This document shows, in pieces, positions 16,799 through 27,106 of a DNA stretch of 38,252 nt. Made by a program: the position numbers and the translations under genes. Position 1 is the stretch's first letter. Every line of letters begins with the position of its first letter. This DNA comes from Clostridia bacterium (GTDB taxonomy: Bacteria > Bacillota > Clostridia > Christensenellales > Aristaeellaceae). Under the pieces are notes generated by a model, which was given only the letters and a program-made list of their open reading frames with translations, searched no databases and was not told the DNA's origin. Location: contig JAFZPV010000009.1 of assembly GCA_017552535.1 (NCBI GenBank), positions 1 to 38,252 of the forward strand, read 5' to 3'.

Positions 16799-18106
16799 AT
16801 GGCCGGACAAAACGAAAGACACCGCTACGACAAAGCGGGCTACAACCGTCTGTTCAAGGCGAGCCGCTATACCAGGCAGACCGTGCACCGGGACAGGGAA
16901 TACGGCCTGTTCTGGTACGATTGGCTCTGGCAGGTGCTCAGGCGCGTTTTGAGCGTGGTGTGCGCTTTGCTGGTGGTGGCGGGGCTGTTCTCTACCGCGT
17001 GGAAGCGGCTGTACACATCGCTCATCGCCCCCACAGCCGCCGGTGAAGTGACCACCTACGCATTTACCGTCAACAGCGGCGAGTCCGTAAGCACCATAGG
17101 CCGCCGGCTGGAGGAGGCGGGCTTCATCCAGTCCGACAGCATGTTCAAGTATTACGTGCAGTTCAAGGGCCTCACCAACAAGCTCCAGAGCGGCGTGTAC
17201 GACTTAAGCCACGGCATGGACCTGTTTGAGGTGGCAAACGTGCTGTCTTCCGGCAAGGGCACAAACGAGCGCACCATACGCATCATTCCCGGCTGGAATG
17301 TGGAAGACATTGCGGAGTATCTGGTAAACGTGGGCGCCATCAGCAAAAAGAGCGAATTCCTGGACGAATGCCGCCGCTATCAGAACTATATGGGCTACTC
17401 GCTGGCGCTGATCAACGCAGCCGAGCACGCCGACCTGAGCGCGCGCACCTATCCGCTGGAGGGATACCTGGCCCCGGATACCTACCGCATCTATCTGACC
17501 GCGGACGCCGCCTCCATCGTGCACACGCTGGTAAGGCAGATGGATACCGTATATACCTCCATGTTCAGCCGGGAGGCCACCTATGACGAAAACGGCAACA
17601 AGATCAGCGATCCCGAGCCCATCGGCGCCAAGGGCGTCACGCTGACCGACGACGAGGTGTTCATCCTGGCGTCCATCATCGAAAAGGAAGCCTCCGCCCC
17701 GGGCGACATGAAGCGGGTGAGCGCCGTGTTCTACAACCGCCTGGCCCTGGGCATGAAGCTGGAAAGCGACCCCACGGTGAAGTACCTTACGGGCATCACG
17801 CGCCTGGCCCTCACCAGCAATGATCTGGCGCGGCGCACCTCCTACAACACCTATCTGGTGAGCGGGCTGCCGGTGGGACCCATCTGTTCCCCCAGCCGCA
17901 GCGCGCTGCTGGCGGCGATGGAGCCGGATCAGGAATTCCTGGACAACGATTTTCTGTTCTTCTGCGCGGCGGAACCCGGCAGCGGCGCGCTGGCGTTCGC
18001 GCGCACCGGCGAGGAGCACCAGAGGAACGTGGACAAGTACCGCCCCCTGTGGGAAGCCTACGACCGCGAACAGGCGGCCAAACGGCAGCAGGCGGGCAAT
18101 CAGTAA
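16799..18106 (+). CDS. mltG: Endolytic peptidoglycan transglycosylase MltG
   Basis: 435 residues. A cytoplasmic basic N-terminus of ~45 residues is followed by one transmembrane helix ([15 protein letters not shown]), a LysM-like region ([21 protein letters not shown]) and the YceG/MltG catalytic domain. The catalytic glutamate is in [26 protein letters not shown] and [12 protein letters not shown] are all conserved. MltG cuts nascent glycan strands at the membrane and may set their length. It starts ten bases after ylbF. The 3' region is followed by a bulged hairpin without T tract before rubrerythrin. Confidence 0.95.
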
Positions 18107-18108
18107 GC

Positions 18109-18132
18109 GATCACGCGCTTTCAGGCGCGATC
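18109..18132 (+). other. Bulged hairpin between mltG and rubrerythrin
   Basis: GATC and CGCGC-like arms (18109-18118 with 18125-18132) can fold into an eight-pair stem with a two-base bulge and a TTTCAG loop. No T run follows. It may stabilise the upstream message or weakly separate it from the rubrerythrin gene. Confidence 0.3.
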
Positions 18133-18153
18133 AATAAACGGGAGGACACATTT

Positions 18154-18693
18154 ATGGCAAACAAGTACGCCGGCACCCAGACCGAAAAGAACCTGCTGGC
18201 CGCTTTTGCGGGCGAATCGCAGGCGCGCAACAAGTACACTTATTTTGCTTCCAAGGCCAAGAAGGAAGGCTTTGAGCAGATCGCCGAACTGTTTCTGAAG
18301 ACGGCGGACAACGAGAAAGAGCACGCCAAGCTCTGGTTCAAGGAGCTGGACGGCATCGGCTCCACTGCCGAGAACCTGGCCGCCGCCGCGGACGGGGAGA
18401 ACTTCGAATGGACGGACATGTACGAAGGCTTTGCGAAGACCGCCGAGCAGGAAGGCTTCAGCGATCTGGCCAAACGTTTCCGCCTGGTGGCCGCCATCGA
18501 GAAGCACCACGAGGAGCGCTACCGCGCGCTGCTGAAGAACATCGAGACCCGCCAGGTGTTTGAAAAGAGCACCGTGAAGGTGTGGGAGTGCCGCAACTGC
18601 GGGCACATCGTGGTGGGCGAGAAGGCTCCCGAGATCTGCCCCACCTGCGCCCATCCCCAGAGCTACTTCGAGGTCAGCGCGGAAAACTACTAA
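18154..18693 (+). CDS. Rubrerythrin
   Basis: 179 residues from the ATG at 18154 with a GGGAGGAC site; the family start [15 protein letters not shown] confirms it. The N-terminal ferritin-like domain supplies the diiron ligands (Glu21, Glu54/His57, Glu98, Glu116/His119) and the C-terminal rubredoxin domain the Fe(Cys)4 site (Cys146, Cys149, Cys162, Cys165). Rubrerythrin reduces hydrogen peroxide in anaerobes. It is the last gene before a very strong terminator and is probably highly expressed. No PerR-like operator was recognised upstream. Confidence 0.96.
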
Positions 18694-18704
18694 AGCATCG
18701 ACAA

Positions 18705-18749
18705 ACGCAAAACCGGGCAGCGGACGGGATCCGCTGCCCGGTTTTGCGT
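18705..18749. terminator. Bidirectional terminator, perfect 20-bp stem
   Basis: Bases 18705-18724 and 18730-18749 are perfect reverse complements around a five-base CGGGA loop. The arms carry AAAAC and GTTTT near their outer ends, so it can terminate in both directions. It separates rubrerythrin (+) from the convergent minus-strand operon. Confidence 0.9.
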
Positions 18750-18773
18750 CTAACTGCCGCCAGGTTTATACCG

Positions 18774-19067
18774 TCAGCTTTCCTTTTGCATGATGCGCCT
18801 GTTGCGGAAGTACAGCGCCAAGTCTGTGCTCACCATGGCCAGGTTTAGCACGTAGAAGCACAGCACGTACCATTTTTGGGAAAAGCTGTTCATGTAGCTT
18901 TCGTTCAGAAGCTTCGAAACGATGCCGGCGATGTAGCCCACGATGATCAGGATCAGAAAACCCAGGCTCTTGCCCTTCGTGGTGCGCGCCTTGTAGGACT
19001 TGATCACGTTCAGCGGCCAGGACGCACCGAAGCACACCAGCATCGCGATCTCCAGTATCTCGCTCAT
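18774..19067 (-). CDS. Three-helix membrane protein, SemiSWEET/PQ-loop-like
   Basis: 97 residues with three hydrophobic segments (residues ~4-20, 35-52, 65-85). The first helix ends in SWPLNVIKSYKARTTKGKSL, which resembles the PQ-loop signature of SemiSWEET sugar transporters (P-Q-x-x-K-x-x-K-T-K-S-x-x-x-I-S-x) with the glutamine replaced. SemiSWEETs act as dimers to pass small sugars. The assignment rests on pattern and size only. AGGAGGG lies upstream of the ATG; it is the last gene of the minus-strand run. Confidence 0.6.
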   Translation of the reverse strand: MSEILEIAMLVCFGASWPLNVIKSYKARTTKGKSLGFLILIIVGYIAGIVSKLLNESYMNSFSQKWYVLCFYVLNLAMVSTDLALYFRNRRIMQKES

Positions 19068-19088
19068 ATACCCTCCTGTTTATCCCAA

Positions 19089-19946
19089 CTAAAATTCAAC
19101 TTCCATCCCGTCGTACGCAATCAGGAAACCCGGCATCAGCGCTTCAAGCTCCTTCTGTCCGGGATAGCCGTTGTGGGAAAAGTGGTTGGCGACAAAGATC
19201 GTTTTCTCATCCGCCGAGCCGTTCACGATGAGGCGCTCCTTCATCAGCAGGTTGTCTTTGGCGCCCATGTGGCCGACCCACTTCGTTTCCAGAAAACCGT
19301 TCGTGCAGTCGAGGCTGACGAGATCGAGCCGCTTTCCCTTTAGGAAGTCAAAGTTCTTCTGCGTGAGTTTGGCGGTGTCGTGCCCGTACAAAAGGCGCTT
19401 GCCGTCTTTTTCGATCAGGTAGATGAAGGCCTCTTCGCTGCGGAAGTATTGCGTGCCCTCATGGATCACGGGATACAGTCCGCTGTCTTTGGAGATGCAG
19501 TGCACCGCTTCCAACGGCGTGACGCCGTAGCCTTCGATCTGAACCGTTTCAAACGGTCTTAAAAGCTGAAAGCGGAAATACTCGCATTCGTGGCGCCTTA
19601 CCTTTTCTCCCACGCGCTCGTTGCCGTAGACGGTCATGAGCTTTTCCGTCGTGGTGATCTGCGCGAAGGTCCCGCGCCTCAACTGCAGCTCGTCCACGTC
19701 CAGATGGTCCTCGTGGCTGTGGGTCACGAGCACCGAGTGAACATAAGCGTAGGAAAGGCCGTTGTCCAGCATCTGCTTGTAGGAATCGGGGCCGAAGTCG
19801 ATCTTGAACGTGCCGTCCAGCATCGCGCCCGAGCGCGTATGGACGCCTTTCGCGCTCAGCGCACGCGCTTTCTGGCAGGCTTCGCACTCACAGAACAGTG
19901 CCGGGATACCCTCCGCCGCGGCGGTGCCGAGATATAACAGTTTCAT
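19089..19946 (-). CDS. PhnP-like metallo-beta-lactamase-fold hydrolase
   Basis: 285 residues from the ATG at 19946, which follows AGGGAGGG; a longer start in the same frame has no binding site. The N-terminus carries Cys19-x-Cys21-x-x-Cys24 (CECEACQKAR), as in the PhnP phosphodiesterase subgroup, and the metal motif THSHEDHLD begins at residue 75; later HCISKDS, LLYGHDTA and VANHFSHNG supply further ligands. PhnP opens cyclic ribose phosphates in phosphonate breakdown, but no C-P lyase genes are present, so the substrate here is probably another phosphodiester. In the middle of the minus-strand run. Confidence 0.82.
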   Translation of the reverse strand: MKLLYLGTAAAEGIPALFCECEACQKARALSAKGVHTRSGAMLDGTFKIDFGPDSYKQMLDNGLSYAYVHSVLVTHSHEDHLDVDELQLRRGTFAQITTTEKLMTVYGNERVGEKVRRHECEYFRFQLLRPFETVQIEGYGVTPLEAVHCISKDSGLYPVIHEGTQYFRSEEAFIYLIEKDGKRLLYGHDTAKLTQKNFDFLKGKRLDLVSLDCTNGFLETKWVGHMGAKDNLLMKERLIVNGSADEKTIFVANHFSHNGYPGQKELEALMPGFLIAYDGMEVEF

Positions 19947-19981
19947 CAAAACCCTCCCTGTGTTTTGAAAATTATAAAGGA

Positions 19982-20938
19982 TTACGACGCTGAAACCCGC
20001 GTACAATAAAGTATCAGAAACCTGTCGCAATCCAGAATCAGCTTTTTACCCCGCACGTGCAAGATGAAGCCGTCTTCCGGTTCGATGGTGTCTGCAAAGA
20101 CGCTGAAATAGTCGATGGGAGCCGGATTTTCATATTCCAGCACGGTGCCCAGATTGTTCACGACGCCATACAATACAAATACGACATCTTTCAGACGCAG
20201 GGCTTCGCAGTTCACAGTGCCGTTCTCAACGGTGATTTCCAACGCCGGAACGTACGGGAGTGCCTTCATGTTGATCGGATAAGAGTACAGTTCGATTCTG
20301 TACGGATACCAATGACCATCAAAATCCGATACATCGTCTGTGATCAGCGGTTCCGTTTCTTCATATCCGTCATAAAAACGTACGGCTTCCGGCTTCTCGC
20401 GCGTGAATATGGTCGAAACAGCCTGCACAGGACTTTTCAGTGTCAATTTACCGTTCTTCAGTTCCAGCCTGAAAAGATCAACTATGTTTTTCATCTGGGT
20501 AAGGTACGGCTCATCTTCATTGGGGAGGTATTCCTGCTCCGCATAAAACGCCAGAAATTCGTCGCTCGGACGCATCCAAATCCCTCCGGGATAGCTTCCC
20601 CAGATAAAGGGAATGCTTGTGATCCCTTCGACAAGCCCGAGCTCGCATTCGCTTTCATATAACGCGCTGCCATCCGGCAAAAAGGTGAGGATGTCCGGGA
20701 CGGAAGCAAACCAGATATCGGCGGGCAATACGTCCATATAGAGCATTTCCGACGCATACCATGTGCCGCAGTATTTCTCCTGTGCTTCCTCGTCAGGTAA
20801 CCAGAACCTGTTATATCGCATCAGGCGTTCAGCCTGTTCAGATGTAGAATAAGAGTAAACATCTGTTTCGGCGAAACAGCTTGCTGTGAGCAGAAGTACC
20901 AATAATACGGTCGCGCTGAGCAGTTGCTTCAAGTTCAT
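19982..20938 (-). CDS. Exported protein of unknown function
   Basis: 318 residues. The N-terminus MNLKQLLSATVLLVLLLTAS is a signal peptide; the following CFAE could be a lipobox cysteine (TASC) or an ordinary cleavage site, so lipoprotein status is open. The mature part is rich in Tyr, Glu and Asp and looks beta-rich, with no recognised domain. Base composition is visibly more AT-rich than most neighbours. Its ATG lies only seven bases after the stop of the broken hemW 3' end, as if it once directly followed a complete hemW. Confidence 0.65.
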   Translation of the reverse strand: MNLKQLLSATVLLVLLLTASCFAETDVYSYSTSEQAERLMRYNRFWLPDEEAQEKYCGTWYASEMLYMDVLPADIWFASVPDILTFLPDGSALYESECELGLVEGITSIPFIWGSYPGGIWMRPSDEFLAFYAEQEYLPNEDEPYLTQMKNIVDLFRLELKNGKLTLKSPVQAVSTIFTREKPEAVRFYDGYEETEPLITDDVSDFDGHWYPYRIELYSYPINMKALPYVPALEITVENGTVNCEALRLKDVVFVLYGVVNNLGTVLEYENPAPIDYFSVFADTIEPEDGFILHVRGKKLILDCDRFLILYCTRVSAS

Positions 20939-20945
20939 CCTTTTC

Positions 20946-21097
20946 TCAATCTCCGATCCTGTTTTCCACCGCGTTCACCAGCTCGGCTACGAGCGCCGAG
21001 TGCAGCTAAAACCTATTTTGGTAAAGCGGAGGCGTCCGTCATCGATTCTTACAAAGCCGCGGAATCCCTGCGCCTTATCTGTGAGCGGCTGTAAAGC
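20946..21097 (-). pseudogene. Broken second copy of the hemW 3' end
   Basis: The minus strand encodes KAQ...RGFVRIDDGRLRFTKIGF and then, after a one-base loss near 21006-21008, LHSALVAELVNAVEN followed by a stop at 20946-20948. These match the last ~40 residues of intact HemW (KAQ...[32 protein letters not shown]) at about 22 of 39 positions, with co-linear DNA alignment to 21907-22030. The left part of the copy, beyond 21079, is less certain. No start or radical SAM domain is present, so it is a non-functional remnant. Confidence 0.85.
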
Positions 21098-21121
21098 TGT
21101 TTGATCAGCAAACAATACTGA

Positions 21122-21421
21122 TCAGAAGTTGAACCGTGGGAGCGTTTTGTATTCATCCTGCAAAGGCCATCCTATTTCCGCCAGCTTTTCTGATTGATCC
21201 ATGGGAAAAACATACTTGTTAAGGTAATCAATAAAGTCTTCTTGTGAATATGCAATGTAGGTACCTATGTCTTTACTGAAATGCCTGTATTTCGCGGCAT
21301 CTGGGCTATCATTCAACCAGTCGCAAAACGCCAGACAATACTCATGCAAACTGTCCGCAACGATATCCGGCACCAAATACAAACCGAGTGGACCATCAGC
21401 GCTCAAAATGACTTTCTTCAT
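21122..21421 (-). CDS. Small acidic protein, possible orphan immunity protein
   Basis: 99 residues, cytoplasmic, no signal peptide. The sequence (KKVILSADG start, CLAFCDWLND, KDIGTYIAYSQEDFIDYLN) recalls small proteins found beside polymorphic toxin genes in Bacillota, but I cannot name a family. AAAAGGA lies eight bases before the ATG. It lies between the intact hemW and the broken hemW 3' end, together with a second immunity-like gene, in AT-richer DNA. No toxin gene is present, hence orphan. Confidence 0.5.
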   Translation of the reverse strand: MKKVILSADGPLGLYLVPDIVADSLHEYCLAFCDWLNDSPDAAKYRHFSKDIGTYIAYSQEDFIDYLNKYVFPMDQSEKLAEIGWPLQDEYKTLPRFNF

Positions 21422-21437
21422 CTATGTTTCCTTTTCA

Positions 21438-21881
21438 TCACAGTTTAAAACGATGCTTTGTGTATTTTTTGTCCAAATAGCAGCTGAACTCATGAAATAG
21501 TCCTTCTGCGAAACACTTCAGGTATGTCTGATCGATATGGTTTTCGAATATCAGTCTCTGTTCGTCTTCCCCGGGGGTACTCAGACAGCCATGCACTTTG
21601 ATATGTCCACCCTTTAATGCTTCAAATTCAATAAAGTCTGTTTCACGGTACAGTGCCGTGAGCTTTGCTCTTCCGGACAGAAGGGTATATAACTCCATGA
21701 GTTCGTTTGAAAACTCCGCTAATGCAACAGCGTCCATAGTCCATTCTGCCGCTCCCGAAAAAGCGCCGCTTTGAACATAAACATGTGCTTCCGTGTTTGC
21801 TGAAATGATAGGTATTAAATCGATATCGTCAATTGAAGCATCTATTTTCAATTCAAAATTACTCGCATGAAGTGTATGCAT
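21438..21881 (-). CDS. Small protein resembling WapI-type immunity proteins
   Basis: 147 residues, acidic, no signal or membrane segment. The layout of strands and helices (VYVQSGAFSGAAEWTMD, then a helix with NELMELYTLLSGRAKL, a strand pair with GGHIKVHG, and NHIDQTYLKCFAEGL near the end) is like WapI-family immunity proteins that neutralise wall-associated toxins. The match is from memory and moderate. The ATG is 25 bases after the hemW stop with a GGAGGA site, so it is co-transcribed with hemW. Confidence 0.55.
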   Translation of the reverse strand: MHTLHASNFELKIDASIDDIDLIPIISANTEAHVYVQSGAFSGAAEWTMDAVALAEFSNELMELYTLLSGRAKLTALYRETDFIEFEALKGGHIKVHGCLSTPGEDEQRLIFENHIDQTYLKCFAEGLFHEFSCYLDKKYTKHRFKL

Positions 21882-21906
21882 TCCGTCCTCCGATATGCTT
21901 CCATAC

Positions 21907-23031
21907 CTAAAGATCCTCTATTGCGTTCACTAATTCAGTCACAACCGCTGAATGCAGCAGCAAACCTTCCCGTGTAAGGCTCAGGCGCTTTTCATCGATG
22001 CTTACCAGCCCTTTCAGCTCCTGCGCCTTGTGCTGCAGCACCTGCTCTGTCTGTATGCCGTAGCACGCCGCAATATCGCTTAGAGATATGCCCCGCACCA
22101 TGCGTGTGCCAAGCAGGATGGTTTCCTCCAGCTTTCCCTTTTCATCCACGCGGTACGCTTCCGTCCGCGTATTGCCCTTAAGGTATTCGTCCAGAACGGG
22201 ATTGGAGAAGCGCTCGGAATCCATAAAGGAATGCGCCGCGCAGCCCAGTCCCAGGTAGTCGCCGCCCGTCCAGTATACGATGTTGTGCCTGGATTCGCGG
22301 CCTGGGAGGGCGTAATTGGAGATCTCGTAGCGCTGATAGCCGTGCTTTTCCAGCACGTCCGCCGCGCAAAGATTCAGGCGGCGAGCCTGTTCCTCGTCGG
22401 GCAGCCGGAGCTCGCCGGACGATACGCGCTGAAAAAGCGGCGTACCCTCTTCGAGGATCAGCCCGTAACACGAGATGTGCTTTGCGCCAAGGGACATGAC
22501 CGCCGTCAGCGTTTCAGTGATATCCTCCTCTGTCTGGCCGGGCAGCTCGTTCATCACGTCGCAGCTGATGTTGTCAAAGCCCGCTTCGCGCGCCTGCTCT
22601 ACAGCCTCCGCGGCATCGTCAAAGCAGTGGATGCGCCCGAGCATCTCAAGCAGCCTGCCCTGCTTTGCCTGCACGCCCAGCGAGAGGCGGTTGAAGCCGA
22701 GGGACCGGGCGGTCTTCAGAAATCCCGGCTTCAGCGTGCCGGGATTGGCTTCCAGCGTGATCTCCGCGTCCGGCAGGGGCGGAAACAGCCGGGTCAGCCC
22801 ATCCGTCAGCCTGCTCAGCTGGTCCGCTGTGAGCAGGCTGGGCGTTCCGCCGCCAAGGTACAGGCTGTAGATGTTCTGGATGCCGTATTCCTGCTTGCGC
22901 TCGCGGGCTTCATCTAACACGCGTGAAATGTATTTGTCCGCTTCATTCAGCCTGCCCGGATACGACACAAAATCGCAGTAGGCGCATTTCTTCGCGCAGA
23001 AGGGAATGTGTACGTATACGGCGGGGGTCAT
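21907..23031 (-). CDS. hemW: Radical SAM family heme chaperone HemW
   Basis: 374 residues from the ATG at 23031, which overlaps the lepA stop as ATGA. The radical SAM cysteines are Cys12, Cys16 and Cys19 ([11 protein letters not shown]); the next residue pattern CDF, not CxC, fits HemW and not the coproporphyrinogen dehydrogenase Hem[18 protein letters not shown] and NRLSLGVQ are also conserved, and a HemN_C winged-helix domain closes the protein. HemW binds heme and delivers it to proteins. Following lepA is the standard Bacillota order, but the usual hrcA-grpE-dnaK does not follow. Confidence 0.95.
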
Positions 23032-24836
23032 GTATCCATCTTGAGCACGGCCATGAAGGCTTCGCTGGGCACCTGCACGCTGCCCACCTGGCGCATGCGC
23101 TTTTTGCCTTCCTTCTGCTTTTCCAGCAGCTTTTTCTTGCGGGTGATGTCGCCGCCGTAGCACTTGGCCAGCACGTCCTTGCGCAGGGCCTTCACGGTCT
23201 CGCGGGCGATGATCTTTCCGCCGATGGCCGCCTGGATGGGGATCTCGAACAGCTGCCGCGGGATGGCGTCACGGAGCTTTTCGGCGATGGAGCGGCCCCG
23301 GGCGTAGGCGCGGTCCCGGTGCACGATGATGGAAAGCGCGTCGCAGGGCTCGCCGTTCAAAAGCATGTCCAGCTTCACTAGGTCGCTTTCCACATAGTCC
23401 TTCAGCTCGTAATCGAAGGAGGCGTAGCCCCGGGTGCGGCTTTTGAGGGTATCGAAAAAGTCGTAGATCACTTCGTTCAGGGGCAGGTCGTAGGACAGCG
23501 ACACGCGCCCGCCGTCGATGTATTTCATGTCGCGGAAGATGCCCCGCTTTTCCTGGCACAGCTCCATGATGGCGCCGGTGTAATCCGCGGGCGTGATCAC
23601 GTGGGCGTCCACGAAGGGCTCCTCCATGTGCTCGATCTCGTTGATCGGGGGAAGGTTGGTGGGGTTGTCGATGGATACCATCTCGCCGTCGGTCTTCTTT
23701 ACGTGATACACCACGCTGGGCGCGGTGGTCACCAGGTCCAGATCGAACTCGCGCTCCAGCCGCTCCTGGATGATCTCCATGTGCAAAAGGCCCAGAAAGC
23801 CGCAGCGGAAGCCGTAGCCCAGCGCCACGCTGGTCTCCGGTTCAAAGGACAGGGAGGCGTCGTTCAGCCTGAGGCGCTCCAGGGCATCTTTCAGGGTCTC
23901 ATAATCCGCGCCGTCAGCGGGATAGATGCCGCAGAACACCATGGGCTGCACGGGCTTGTAGCCGGGCAGAGCCTGAGACGCGGGATTCAGCGCGCCGGTG
24001 ATGGTGTCGCCCACGCGGATGTCTGCGATGTCCTTGATGGAGGCGGCGATGTATCCTACGTCGCCGGCGGTCAGTTCGCCCGTGGGCTGGTAGCCGCCGG
24101 GGATGAACGCGCCGCACTCGGTGACGTCGAATTCCTTGCCGCAGGCCATCATGCGTATGCGGTCGCCCACCTTCACGGTGCCCTGCTTGATGCGCACCGA
24201 TGAGATCGCGCCGCGGTAGTTGTCGTAATAGCTGTCGAAGATCAGCGCCTGCAGGGGGGAGGAGGCGTCGCCCTTCGGGGCGGGCACCTTATCGACGATC
24301 TGCTCCAGCACTTCGTCGATGCCCACGCCCTGCTTGGCGCTGATCAGCGGGCAGCCTTCGGTGTCCAGGCCGATCTCGTCCTCGATCTCCTTTTTCACCA
24401 CTTCCGGCTGGGCGCTGGGCAGGTCGATCTTGTTGATCACGGGCAGGATCTCCAGGTCATGGTCCAGCGCAAGATACACATTGGCCAGCGTCTGGGCTTC
24501 GATGCCCTGGGTGGCGTCCACCACCAGGATCGCACCCTCGCAGGCAGCCAGGGCCCGGCTGACCTCATAGGTAAAGTCCACGTGGCCGGGGGTGTCGATC
24601 AGGTTCAATTCGTATTCCTGGCCGTCCTTCGCCTTATAGGGCATGCGCACGGCCTTGGACTTGATGGTGATGCCCCTTTCGCGCTCCAGCTCCATGCTGT
24701 CCAGCACCTGGTCGGTCATGTCCCGCAGGGCCATGACGCCCGTCTTTTCCAGCAGGCGGTCGGCCAGGGTGCTCTTTCCGTGGTCGATATGCGCGATGAT
24801 GCAGAAATTGCGGATCTTATCAAGCTGCGTTGCCAA
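23028..24836 (-). CDS. lepA: Elongation factor 4 / LepA (TTG start)
   Basis: 602 residues, full length. A ribosome-associated GTPase thought to help back-translocation or initiation and 30S assembly. All G motifs are visible: AHIDHGKST (G1), the RGITIKS region (G2), DTPGHVDF (G3), NKID (G4). The LepA-specific C-terminal domain ends ...[13 protein letters not shown]. The start is a TTG ([10 protein letters not shown]), with GGAGGAAG seven bases upstream. It lies 14 bases after the exported-protein gene in the same run. Confidence 0.97.
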
Positions 24837-24850
24837 AGGTCTTCCTCCGT

Positions 24851-25723
24851 TTACAGGGCGTTGTAATGCTGCAGGCGGACCACTTCGCCGTTTGAACCGA
24901 AGAGCACGGTAAAAACAGCTTCCACCTGGTTGATGTTGTAGTACTGTTCGATGGCCACAGAGATCTGGGCGGCGTCCGGCTCGCTGCGCTCAAGGGTATA
25001 CAGCGCGGAGCGCATATTGGGCAGCCACACGTCCGCGTCCGGGCTGAGCTTCACGGTGTATTGCCGGGGATCGTCGTTCACAGCGTAGGGGAGACCAAAC
25101 TCCTTTTCATACTCGATCTGGCAGTAATCGATGGTGAGGTATACGCCGTCTGAGCGCTGCTCGCAGGCGTTCAGAAAGGCCAGGCAGGCGGTGGAGATCA
25201 GCCGCTGCCGTAAGGACAGCGACGGGATGAAACTGTTTGAAAACCGCTCGCGCTCCGCCTCTTTGCCCCAGGAGGTCTGGCTGGCGATGAGCATGTATTC
25301 GGCGGAAACCCGGGCCGCGTACATATCCACGGTGAACACGTCTCCGCTTCCAGTGTCCCGCAGGGAACGGTAGGAGTAGCTCACGCAGGCGCCTTCGGAA
25401 TAGCCGGCGAAACCGCAGGCGGTCACGGCGGTCTGGTTTATTATGCTTCCGTAGCGGTTCACGCCCCGCACGTGGCTTTCCAGCAGGCGGGCGGGCGTAT
25501 CCTCCGCTTCGTCCAGCGAAACGCTGATCTCGCAGGTGTCTGCAAAGGCGCTTAAGAGCAGGCCGGAGGGCTCGATGAAGGTGATGACTTCCATGCCGCT
25601 CAAGGCGCTTTCGTCGTATACGGGCGCGTAGGCGGCGTAGACGCTTCCGTCAAAACCCGCCTCCCCCAGGGCACTCAGGCAGAAAAGCAGGATCAAAACC
25701 AGACACAGCCGTTTCGTGCGCAT
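24851..25723 (-). CDS. Exported protein of unknown function
   Basis: 290 residues. A clear signal peptide ([22 protein letters not shown]), probable cleavage after the ALGEA region. The mature protein has no recognised domain and is of mixed strand/helix character, ending in [30 protein letters not shown] precedes the ATG. It lies between the zinc-ribbon membrane protein and lepA, with small gaps on both sides, and may act with the former at the cell surface; this is context only. Confidence 0.7.
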
Positions 25724-25753
25724 AACGTCCTCCTGAAATCCGTTCGCCGGGCG

Positions 25754-27106
25754 CTAATCCCGCGAGTAGCGGGCGATGAGATAGGGGATATAGTTGCTGT
25801 CGTAGAACAGGCGGCCCGCCACGTCCGCGTACAGGGCGTATTCCTCGCCCGGCAGCAGACGGCCCACGTTGGACTGGTTCTCCAGGGCCACCAGCTTCAC
25901 GTCCGCATCGTTGCCCACGTTCATGATGGCGTAGGTGGTGCCGCTCTCGGTGTAGCTGTCCACCACCTTGCCGATGCACAGGAACACGCGGCCGTTCCAC
26001 TGCTCGTAGTACAGGCGCAGCTGCGCGTAGTCCATCTTCCAGGCGTTGCGCGTGTATTCCGCCTTGGCGGGCAGGTAATCCACGTAGAAGCTGATGGCGC
26101 TGTCCCGCCTGCCCTCCATGCTGGCGCGGAAGGACACCAGGTTCTTTCCGTAAGCGGAGAAGCGGGCCCGGAAGGAGAATTTGCCGGTGGACTGATCCAG
26201 CTGCAGGCTCCCGCGCTCGTAGTCCGTATCCACGGTCACGGTGGCGCCGGGCTCGGTCTTGCCGCTGATGGTCATGTAGTTGAGGCGGCTGATGTACTGC
26301 ACGGTGGAGGCGACCTCCAGGTTGATGTCCATCACCTCGCGGTAGAACACGATGTCGCGGCGGGCCTCTTTGTGGTTGGCCGTGCGCACGATGATGGAGA
26401 TGTTGTTGTCGCCGATGGGTTCGATGTTCAGCGTGAGGCTCAGGTTTCCGCTGCGGTCCACCTTGCCGGATACGTCTTCGCCGTTGATGATCACCTGGCT
26501 GCCGTACACCACGTTCATGTTGAGGCCGGTCTGGGCCGTGATCACGGTGACGCGGTCCTGCTTGGGCTCGGTGATGGTCACAGGCGCTTCGGGCACGTCC
26601 ACCTTGATGGAGAACACGGGAATGCGCGTCTTTTTGCCTGTGGACGCCACATACACAGGGGAGAAGGTGATCAGGGCGTTGTCGATCGTGGTGGGATCAT
26701 CCTCGAACCAGATGTAGTCGGGAAACTCTACGCGGGCGATGCCGCCCACGAACATATAGCTTTCGCCCAGTTCCTCGATGTATACGCAGTCCCCGTCCTC
26801 GCCGAAGAAGGTGAGGGCGTGGCCCCGCATGCCGTTTTCCAGCGTCACCGCCTCCACGGTCTGCTTTACATACTGCTCGGTGATGCGCTTGTTCTGCCGG
26901 CGTATGCGCAGCGGCTCCTCGATCAGCTGGATGATGATCAGCGTCACCACCACCGCCGCGAGCACCGCCAGCGCCCGCAGAAGCAGGCTCTTTAAGGGCA
27001 GCTTCTCCTCGTTGCTAACTTTATCCTGATAAGTAAGCGGCAGGCCGCATTTGGCACATTTGCTCATTGACGCCTTGATGGTGGCGCCGCATTTGGGACA
27101 GGTCAA
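25754..27106 (-). CDS. Zinc-ribbon single-pass membrane protein with large extracytoplasmic domain (TTG start)
   Basis: 450 residues from a TTG at 27106 with GGAGGT upstream. Residues 1-25 form a zinc ribbon (Cys3, Cys6, Cys17, Cys20), then a basic linker, one transmembrane helix at about residues 42-62, and ~385 extracytoplasmic residues. The latter contain Ig/bacterial beta-sandwich-like stretches (ISGKTEPGATVTVDTDYER is typical of a bacterial Ig-like repeat). Function unknown; such proteins may sense or bind the envelope. It is the first gene of a long minus-strand operon with a good promoter upstream. Confidence 0.8.
   Translation of the reverse strand: MTCPKCGATIKASMSKCAKCGLPLTYQDKVSNEEKLPLKSLLLRALAVLAAVVVTLIIIQLIEEPLRIRRQNKRITEQYVKQTVEAVTLENGMRGHALTFFGEDGDCVYIEELGESYMFVGGIARVEFPDYIWFEDDPTTIDNALITFSPVYVASTGKKTRIPVFSIKVDVPEAPVTITEPKQDRVTVITAQTGLNMNVVYGSQVIINGEDVSGKVDRSGNLSLTLNIEPIGDNNISIIVRTANHKEARRDIVFYREVMDINLEVASTVQYISRLNYMTISGKTEPGATVTVDTDYERGSLQLDQSTGKFSFRARFSAYGKNLVSFRASMEGRRDSAISFYVDYLPAKAEYTRNAWKMDYAQLRLYYEQWNGRVFLCIGKVVDSYTESGTTYAIMNVGNDADVKLVALENQSNVGRLLPGEEYALYADVAGRLFYDSNYIPYLIARYSRD

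Follow-up and report, generated by a model that had tools for sequence, protein, structure and literature searches.

In the 38,252 nt of clostridial DNA analyzed here (hereafter, the window), the native 3′ end of the housekeeping gene hemW has very likely been displaced by an insertion. Comparison with the closest relative shows an apparent insert of ~0.95 kb, reaching from 21039-21052 to 21992-22005, that splits what would have been the ancestral hemW near codons 341-347. This comparison indicates that the insert brought a replacement hemW tail together with a WapI-family gene and a 99-aa gene, and that the presumed native tail and the start region of a gene for an exported protein were left on its far side. 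The locus is a real and well-bounded instance of a housekeeping gene whose end has been displaced, with an immunity gene carried as cargo, and though unusual it is of a recognizable kind. It extends to a conserved housekeeping gene a process of toxin genes, in which the 3′ end is swapped, the old end orphaned and an immunity gene gained, and it raises the possibility that shared core genes could serve as homology anchors through which immunity genes pass from one bacterium to another with no need of mobile-element machinery. Since the remnant makes such events recognizable, a scan for orphan core-gene tails beside small foreign gene groups could gauge their frequency.

Gene Order and the Orphaned hemW End

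Read along the minus strand, the locus consists of lepA, hemW (21907-23031), a gene for a 147-aa protein (21438-21881), a gene for a 99-aa protein (21122-21421), a hemW-like fragment (20946-21076), a gene for an exported protein of 318 aa (19982-20938) and a gene for a PhnP-like metallo-hydrolase (19089-19943). HemW is a heme chaperone, and the intact gene belongs to TIGR00539 (279.8 bits, cut-off 205.4). It ends 0.83 kb from the remnant, close to the 0.9 kb of the preliminary description, and the two small genes in between have a GC content of 0.41 (147-aa gene) and 0.43 (99-aa gene) versus 0.60 for the window. The islet at 21121-21906 proposed in that description does contain both cargo genes, but the insert extends further and reaches into hemW, to ~21992-22005.

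On the minus strand from 21076 to 20946, the translation corresponds to the C-terminus of HemW but is spread over two frames by a one-base frameshift and also interrupted by an in-frame TAG. A by-eye count across the frameshift gives ~22 of 39 residues in common with the intact HemW C-terminus, in agreement with the original report of a broken copy of the last ~40 codons. The likeness to the window's own gene is modest (a tblastn match of 15 residues to HemW, E 0.001; a local score of 34 to the intact hemW end, shuffle maximum 29). The hemW 3′ end of G006, a member of the same genus, matches the remnant at 64 of 74 nt (blastn, E 9e-20) with a local score of 98, where the highest of 2000 shuffles reached 28, and this match spans the hemW stop codon and extends to where the exported gene begins; the remnant is an orphan, G006-type 3′ end lying downstream of hemW. 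The 45 nt left of 21076 bear no likeness to hemW (p 0.20 and 0.95), so the fragment starts near 21076 and not at 21097, where its edge had been placed.

Gene order was compared in the source genome and six others of the genus (seven in all). G006 is the closest by HemW, at 75% aa identity, and the other five stand at 54-59%. In G006, an orthologue of the exported-protein gene (75% aa) begins 8 nt behind hemW, and after it comes the PhnP-like gene, which is next in order in the window as well. The suggestion that the exported gene was the original downstream neighbor of hemW is thus borne out in one close relative, and this gene order, together with the match of the remnant to the G006 end, supports displacement of the old hemW end. 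Elsewhere in the genus, the PhnP-like gene directly follows hemW in G004 and G005, with neither the islet nor the exported gene there, G002 carries a different gene on the opposite strand, and in G001 (L032 7252-8093) a ribonuclease of the barnase type (PF00545) that looks secreted comes directly after hemW together with a barstar (PF01337). Because the genes after hemW differ among relatives, the stretch behind it is a variable spot, and other cargo, as had been anticipated, occurs in the same place. The G001 genes are a toxin-immunity pair of bacterial competition, located at the same spot as the immunity gene of the window, and two genes behind hemW in G003 (L033) resemble them when judged by eye.

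Probable Replacement of the hemW Tail

Within the intact gene, the resident part (codons 1 to ~341; 22006-23031, minus strand) is 73% identical to G006 hemW at the nucleotide level and has a GC3 of ~0.77. In break-point tests of identity and composition devised after the data had been seen, identity drops to 56% over the final 33 codons (p 0.007 by permutation, with no circular shift as extreme), and the final 23 have a GC3 of 0.39 instead of 0.77 (p 0.001). A conserved 5′ part is joined to a differing 3′ end, with both breaks near codons 341-352, and the segment at 21907-22005 on the minus strand would be the replacement end that completes the 374-aa HemW. In a column-wise comparison, G006 is matched by the intact copy as far as ~17-38 nt beyond the first base of codon 335, and by the remnant from there on. 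These similarity switches are reciprocal, at ~codons 341-347, with informative sites divided 36:6 to the left of the break and 6:28 to the right and none of 5000 permutations as extreme, the left side being largely non-homologous islet sequence; the homologous stretch alone gives p 0.0034. Among the HemW C-termini compared (the window's own loci left out of the ranking), the best match of the intact tail is still G006, so its foreignness rests on the break-point and GC3 tests.

Proposed Mechanism of Displacement

Homology-anchored recombination as the mechanism of displacement is a proposition for which the balance is even, while event and mechanism taken together, displacement with recombination anchored in hemW, are judged fairly probable. 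The donor would be a related, unsampled lineage with its own hemW end and two genes behind it. On the left side, donor DNA would have recombined with the resident hemW by homology, and on the right side joining would have been illegitimate or at a short repeat, with little resident DNA lost. The old tail, deprived of its coding role, would then have decayed, and the event would have been tolerated because hemW stayed intact. The polarity of the event is based on one relative, G006, and the locus is known from one fragmented genome. In one report, homology-facilitated illegitimate recombination is proposed as the cause of displaced 3′ ends in effector genes (PMC5361080), and another proposes the same displacement mechanism for rhs and vgrG (PMC8125069).

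A donor of the insert was not found in searches of family genomes, order genomes, plasmids, phages and viral contigs. The islet DNA occurs among 300 family genomes in its own only, apart from one 30-nt match in G158 taken as chance, and the tail DNA among 308 family genomes likewise in its own only; this latter search also missed the homologous end of G006, and a diverged donor would therefore be missed too. HemW itself has one match in viral_contigs, to the N-terminal part only.

An alternative that we consider rather unlikely is site-specific integration, in which an element, or a cassette moved in trans, would have entered at a core inside the hemW 3′ end and restored the gene end, its integrase having since been lost or never been present. 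This would suit the reciprocal break, at which resident sequence shows no evident loss, and the near-direct repeat located exactly there, whose left copy GTAAGCATCGATGA (21992-22005, minus strand) and right copy GTAAGAATCGATGA (21039-21052, minus strand, within the remnant) share 13 of 14 nt. Both copies read GTAAG(C/A)ATCGATGA, and G006 differs at this place. The 14-mer has no further exact match in the seven genus genomes, which hold 10 one-mismatch places, but the permutation chance of such a 13/14-nt block is 0.07. The target gene was also kept whole, as is reported for IMEVchUSA3 at dusA (PMC8409611). Against site-specific integration, the replacement tail is just ~60% identical to the remnant, no PF00589 integrase is encoded on the contig (the four of the genome lie on other contigs), and none of the 47 larger window ORFs compared with Pfam matched a recombinase or transposase family. 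Nor was a second hemW end found behind hemW elsewhere. Among 124 hemW records, which contain duplicates and of which three are the window itself, 123 were scanned (one was dropped for too little flank), and only the window's own three fell below E 0.001, the next standing at 0.008; the scan was limited to the flank of each record, often ≤1.5 kb, and a strongly decayed end would escape it. In the literature matches listed for hemW with insertion site, integrase or hotspot, none of the titles treats hemW as an integration site. A more general scheme, in which sub-kb integrase-less cassettes moved in trans would enter short cores in the 3′ ends of housekeeping genes, carrying a spare end and immunity genes, with the hemW 3′ end as one such site, has only a slim chance of being correct.

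The event may also be read in the opposite direction: the islet and both ends would be ancestral to G006 and the window genome, and recombination between the ends would have removed the islet from G006. After such a loss, hemW of G006 would resemble the intact copy to the left of the break and the remnant to its right, as is seen, but this reading requires that a comparable insertion had taken place before, and neither islet nor exported gene is found behind hemW in G004 or G005. This reversal is quite unlikely, and it would leave the nature of the islet unchanged.

A recent tandem duplication had been disfavored from the outset, and the sites at the hemW end agree with that judgment. In favor of a duplication of the end followed by divergence and later insertion of two genes between the copies, the first 63 nt contain 10 sites that unite both copies against G006, with remnant and intact end equally distant from G006 (9:9). 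Over the last 51 nt, however, the remnant sides with G006 at 15 sites and the intact end at 3 (relative-rate test, p 0.0075), so that the non-coding copy is the nearer to G006, the reverse of duplicate decay, and the low GC3 of the intact tail is like that of the cargo. Two full hemW genes in tandem were seen at none of 12 loci. Duplication as an explanation of the whole locus is thus very unlikely, though the 9:9 division and the 10 uniting sites leave room for duplication of a short overlap, or for a very close donor, and the pattern of the first 63 nt may reflect such an overlap, a close donor or decay. A conceivable source of the short overlap is unequal crossing-over, which is reported to produce duplications when the transforming DNA is in part repeated in the chromosome (PMC3784515).

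That the contig falsely joins two strains is exceedingly unlikely. The genome assembly consists of 62 contigs at 76.7% completeness and 3% contamination, but only one hemW was found in it (the other match is a distant paralogue), and likeness to hemW is absent to the left of the remnant, so that no long shared sequence is seen there that could cause a false join.

Cargo Genes

The 147-aa protein, encoded 25 nt after hemW, belongs to the WapI-like immunity family PF24716 (40.2 bits, cut-off 27). It is the sole PF24716 match in its genome, where RHS-repeat proteins have no match, and on these grounds it looks like an orphan in a genome that is 77% complete. The protein probably guards the cell against the toxin of a neighbor. 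WXG100 proteins were matched in one of the seven genus genomes, the source genome being without them. The WapI-like protein has five matches in 200 family genomes, its own included, and none in phage records; neither cargo protein has a match in viral_contigs. A search for a related solved structure returned two matches, with E 0.39 and E 0.76, that are regarded as chance. Two of its relatives, L138 5432-5986 (G142) and L140 4869-5596 (G107), lie within ~0.25 kb of tRNA genes (tRNA-Glu and tRNA-Leu, respectively), and tRNA genes are common insertion places; the G107 copy is apparently broken by a frameshift.

The 99-aa protein, encoded 16 nt after the WapI-like gene, does not reach the cut-off of any family in Pfam or NCBIfam. 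It has five matches in 200 family genomes and five in 347 order genomes (its own included in each), one plasmid record with a 52.5% identical protein, and one weak match in PHROGs, to a family of unknown function (E 7e-4). Its relatives (26-53% identity) adjoin various other genes in other Clostridia, and in G074 a homologue forms, in frame, the end of a 603-aa ORF. The family has a patchy spread, with a conserved DFIDYLN-like stretch and a C-terminal P-x-x-x-F. PADLOC gave no match for the three locus proteins submitted to it, and none of 15 locus records held relatives of both cargo proteins at E 0.01 or better, as a standing pair would.

Both cargo genes are located on the strand of hemW, at the spacings of 25 and 16 nt given above, and are preceded by Shine-Dalgarno-like sequences (GGAGG for the WapI-like gene). 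From this closeness and these sequences, transcription with hemW is likely, and the cargo genes are probably transcribed together with lepA-hemW. Rfam at gathering score found no family in 18000-26000, and promoter and terminator scans were not above shuffles (3 vs 3.5 and 4 vs 7.2, respectively).

Relation to Known Systems

As in the C-terminal displacement described for rhs, vgrG and T6SS effector genes in two reports, which cite Jackson 2009 (PMC5361080; PMC8125069), hemW has a new 3′ end and an immunity gene, with the old end orphaned downstream. In those reports, the process acts on toxin genes and alters toxin activity (PMC5361080; PMC8125069), whereas hemW (TIGR00539) is neither a polymorphic toxin nor an effector and keeps its function with the new end. 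The hemW case therefore resembles rhs/effector displacement yet is not filed there. The gene beside the new hemW end scores above the PF24716 cut-off, and end and immunity gene presumably travelled together.

Phages integrate at icd and restore the target gene. Among integrative elements, IMEVchUSA3 inserts at the 5′ end of dusA, which is made whole by the incoming DNA, and SGI1 integrates at the 3′ end of trmE (PMC8409611). The hemW insert shares with such gene-restoring elements a conserved gene that is entered and made whole by incoming DNA, but it differs from them in having no integrase, a size of <1 kb, a strongly diverged replacement end and a single occurrence. A putative T6SS immunity islet of Salmonella Typhi is likewise a small cluster of genes, an immunity-family protein among their products; it comprises 14 genes, while the hemW islet comprises two, one of them in a recognized immunity family (PMC7400221).

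The Exported-Protein and PhnP-like Genes

The exported gene is low in GC (0.49, GC3 0.58) and present in two of the seven genus genomes, its own included, and for these reasons may itself have arrived behind hemW at an earlier time. It looks like an earlier arrival that G006 also has, and the islet would be a further addition. Ahead of this gene, a 32-nt exact run between the remnant and G006 (20974-21005) holds an inverted repeat ~47-66 nt from the start of the gene; for comparison, the longest exact run within hemW itself is 26 nt. Constraint on the leader of the exported gene is a possible reason for the run. Where hemW and the exported gene meet, G006 has a strong hairpin (z -2.4), whereas that of the window is not above shuffles (z -0.4). 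The PhnP-like protein is 70% identical (aa) to that of G005 and 64% to that of G006, though hemW is much closer to G006, and the PhnP-like gene has possibly been exchanged separately.
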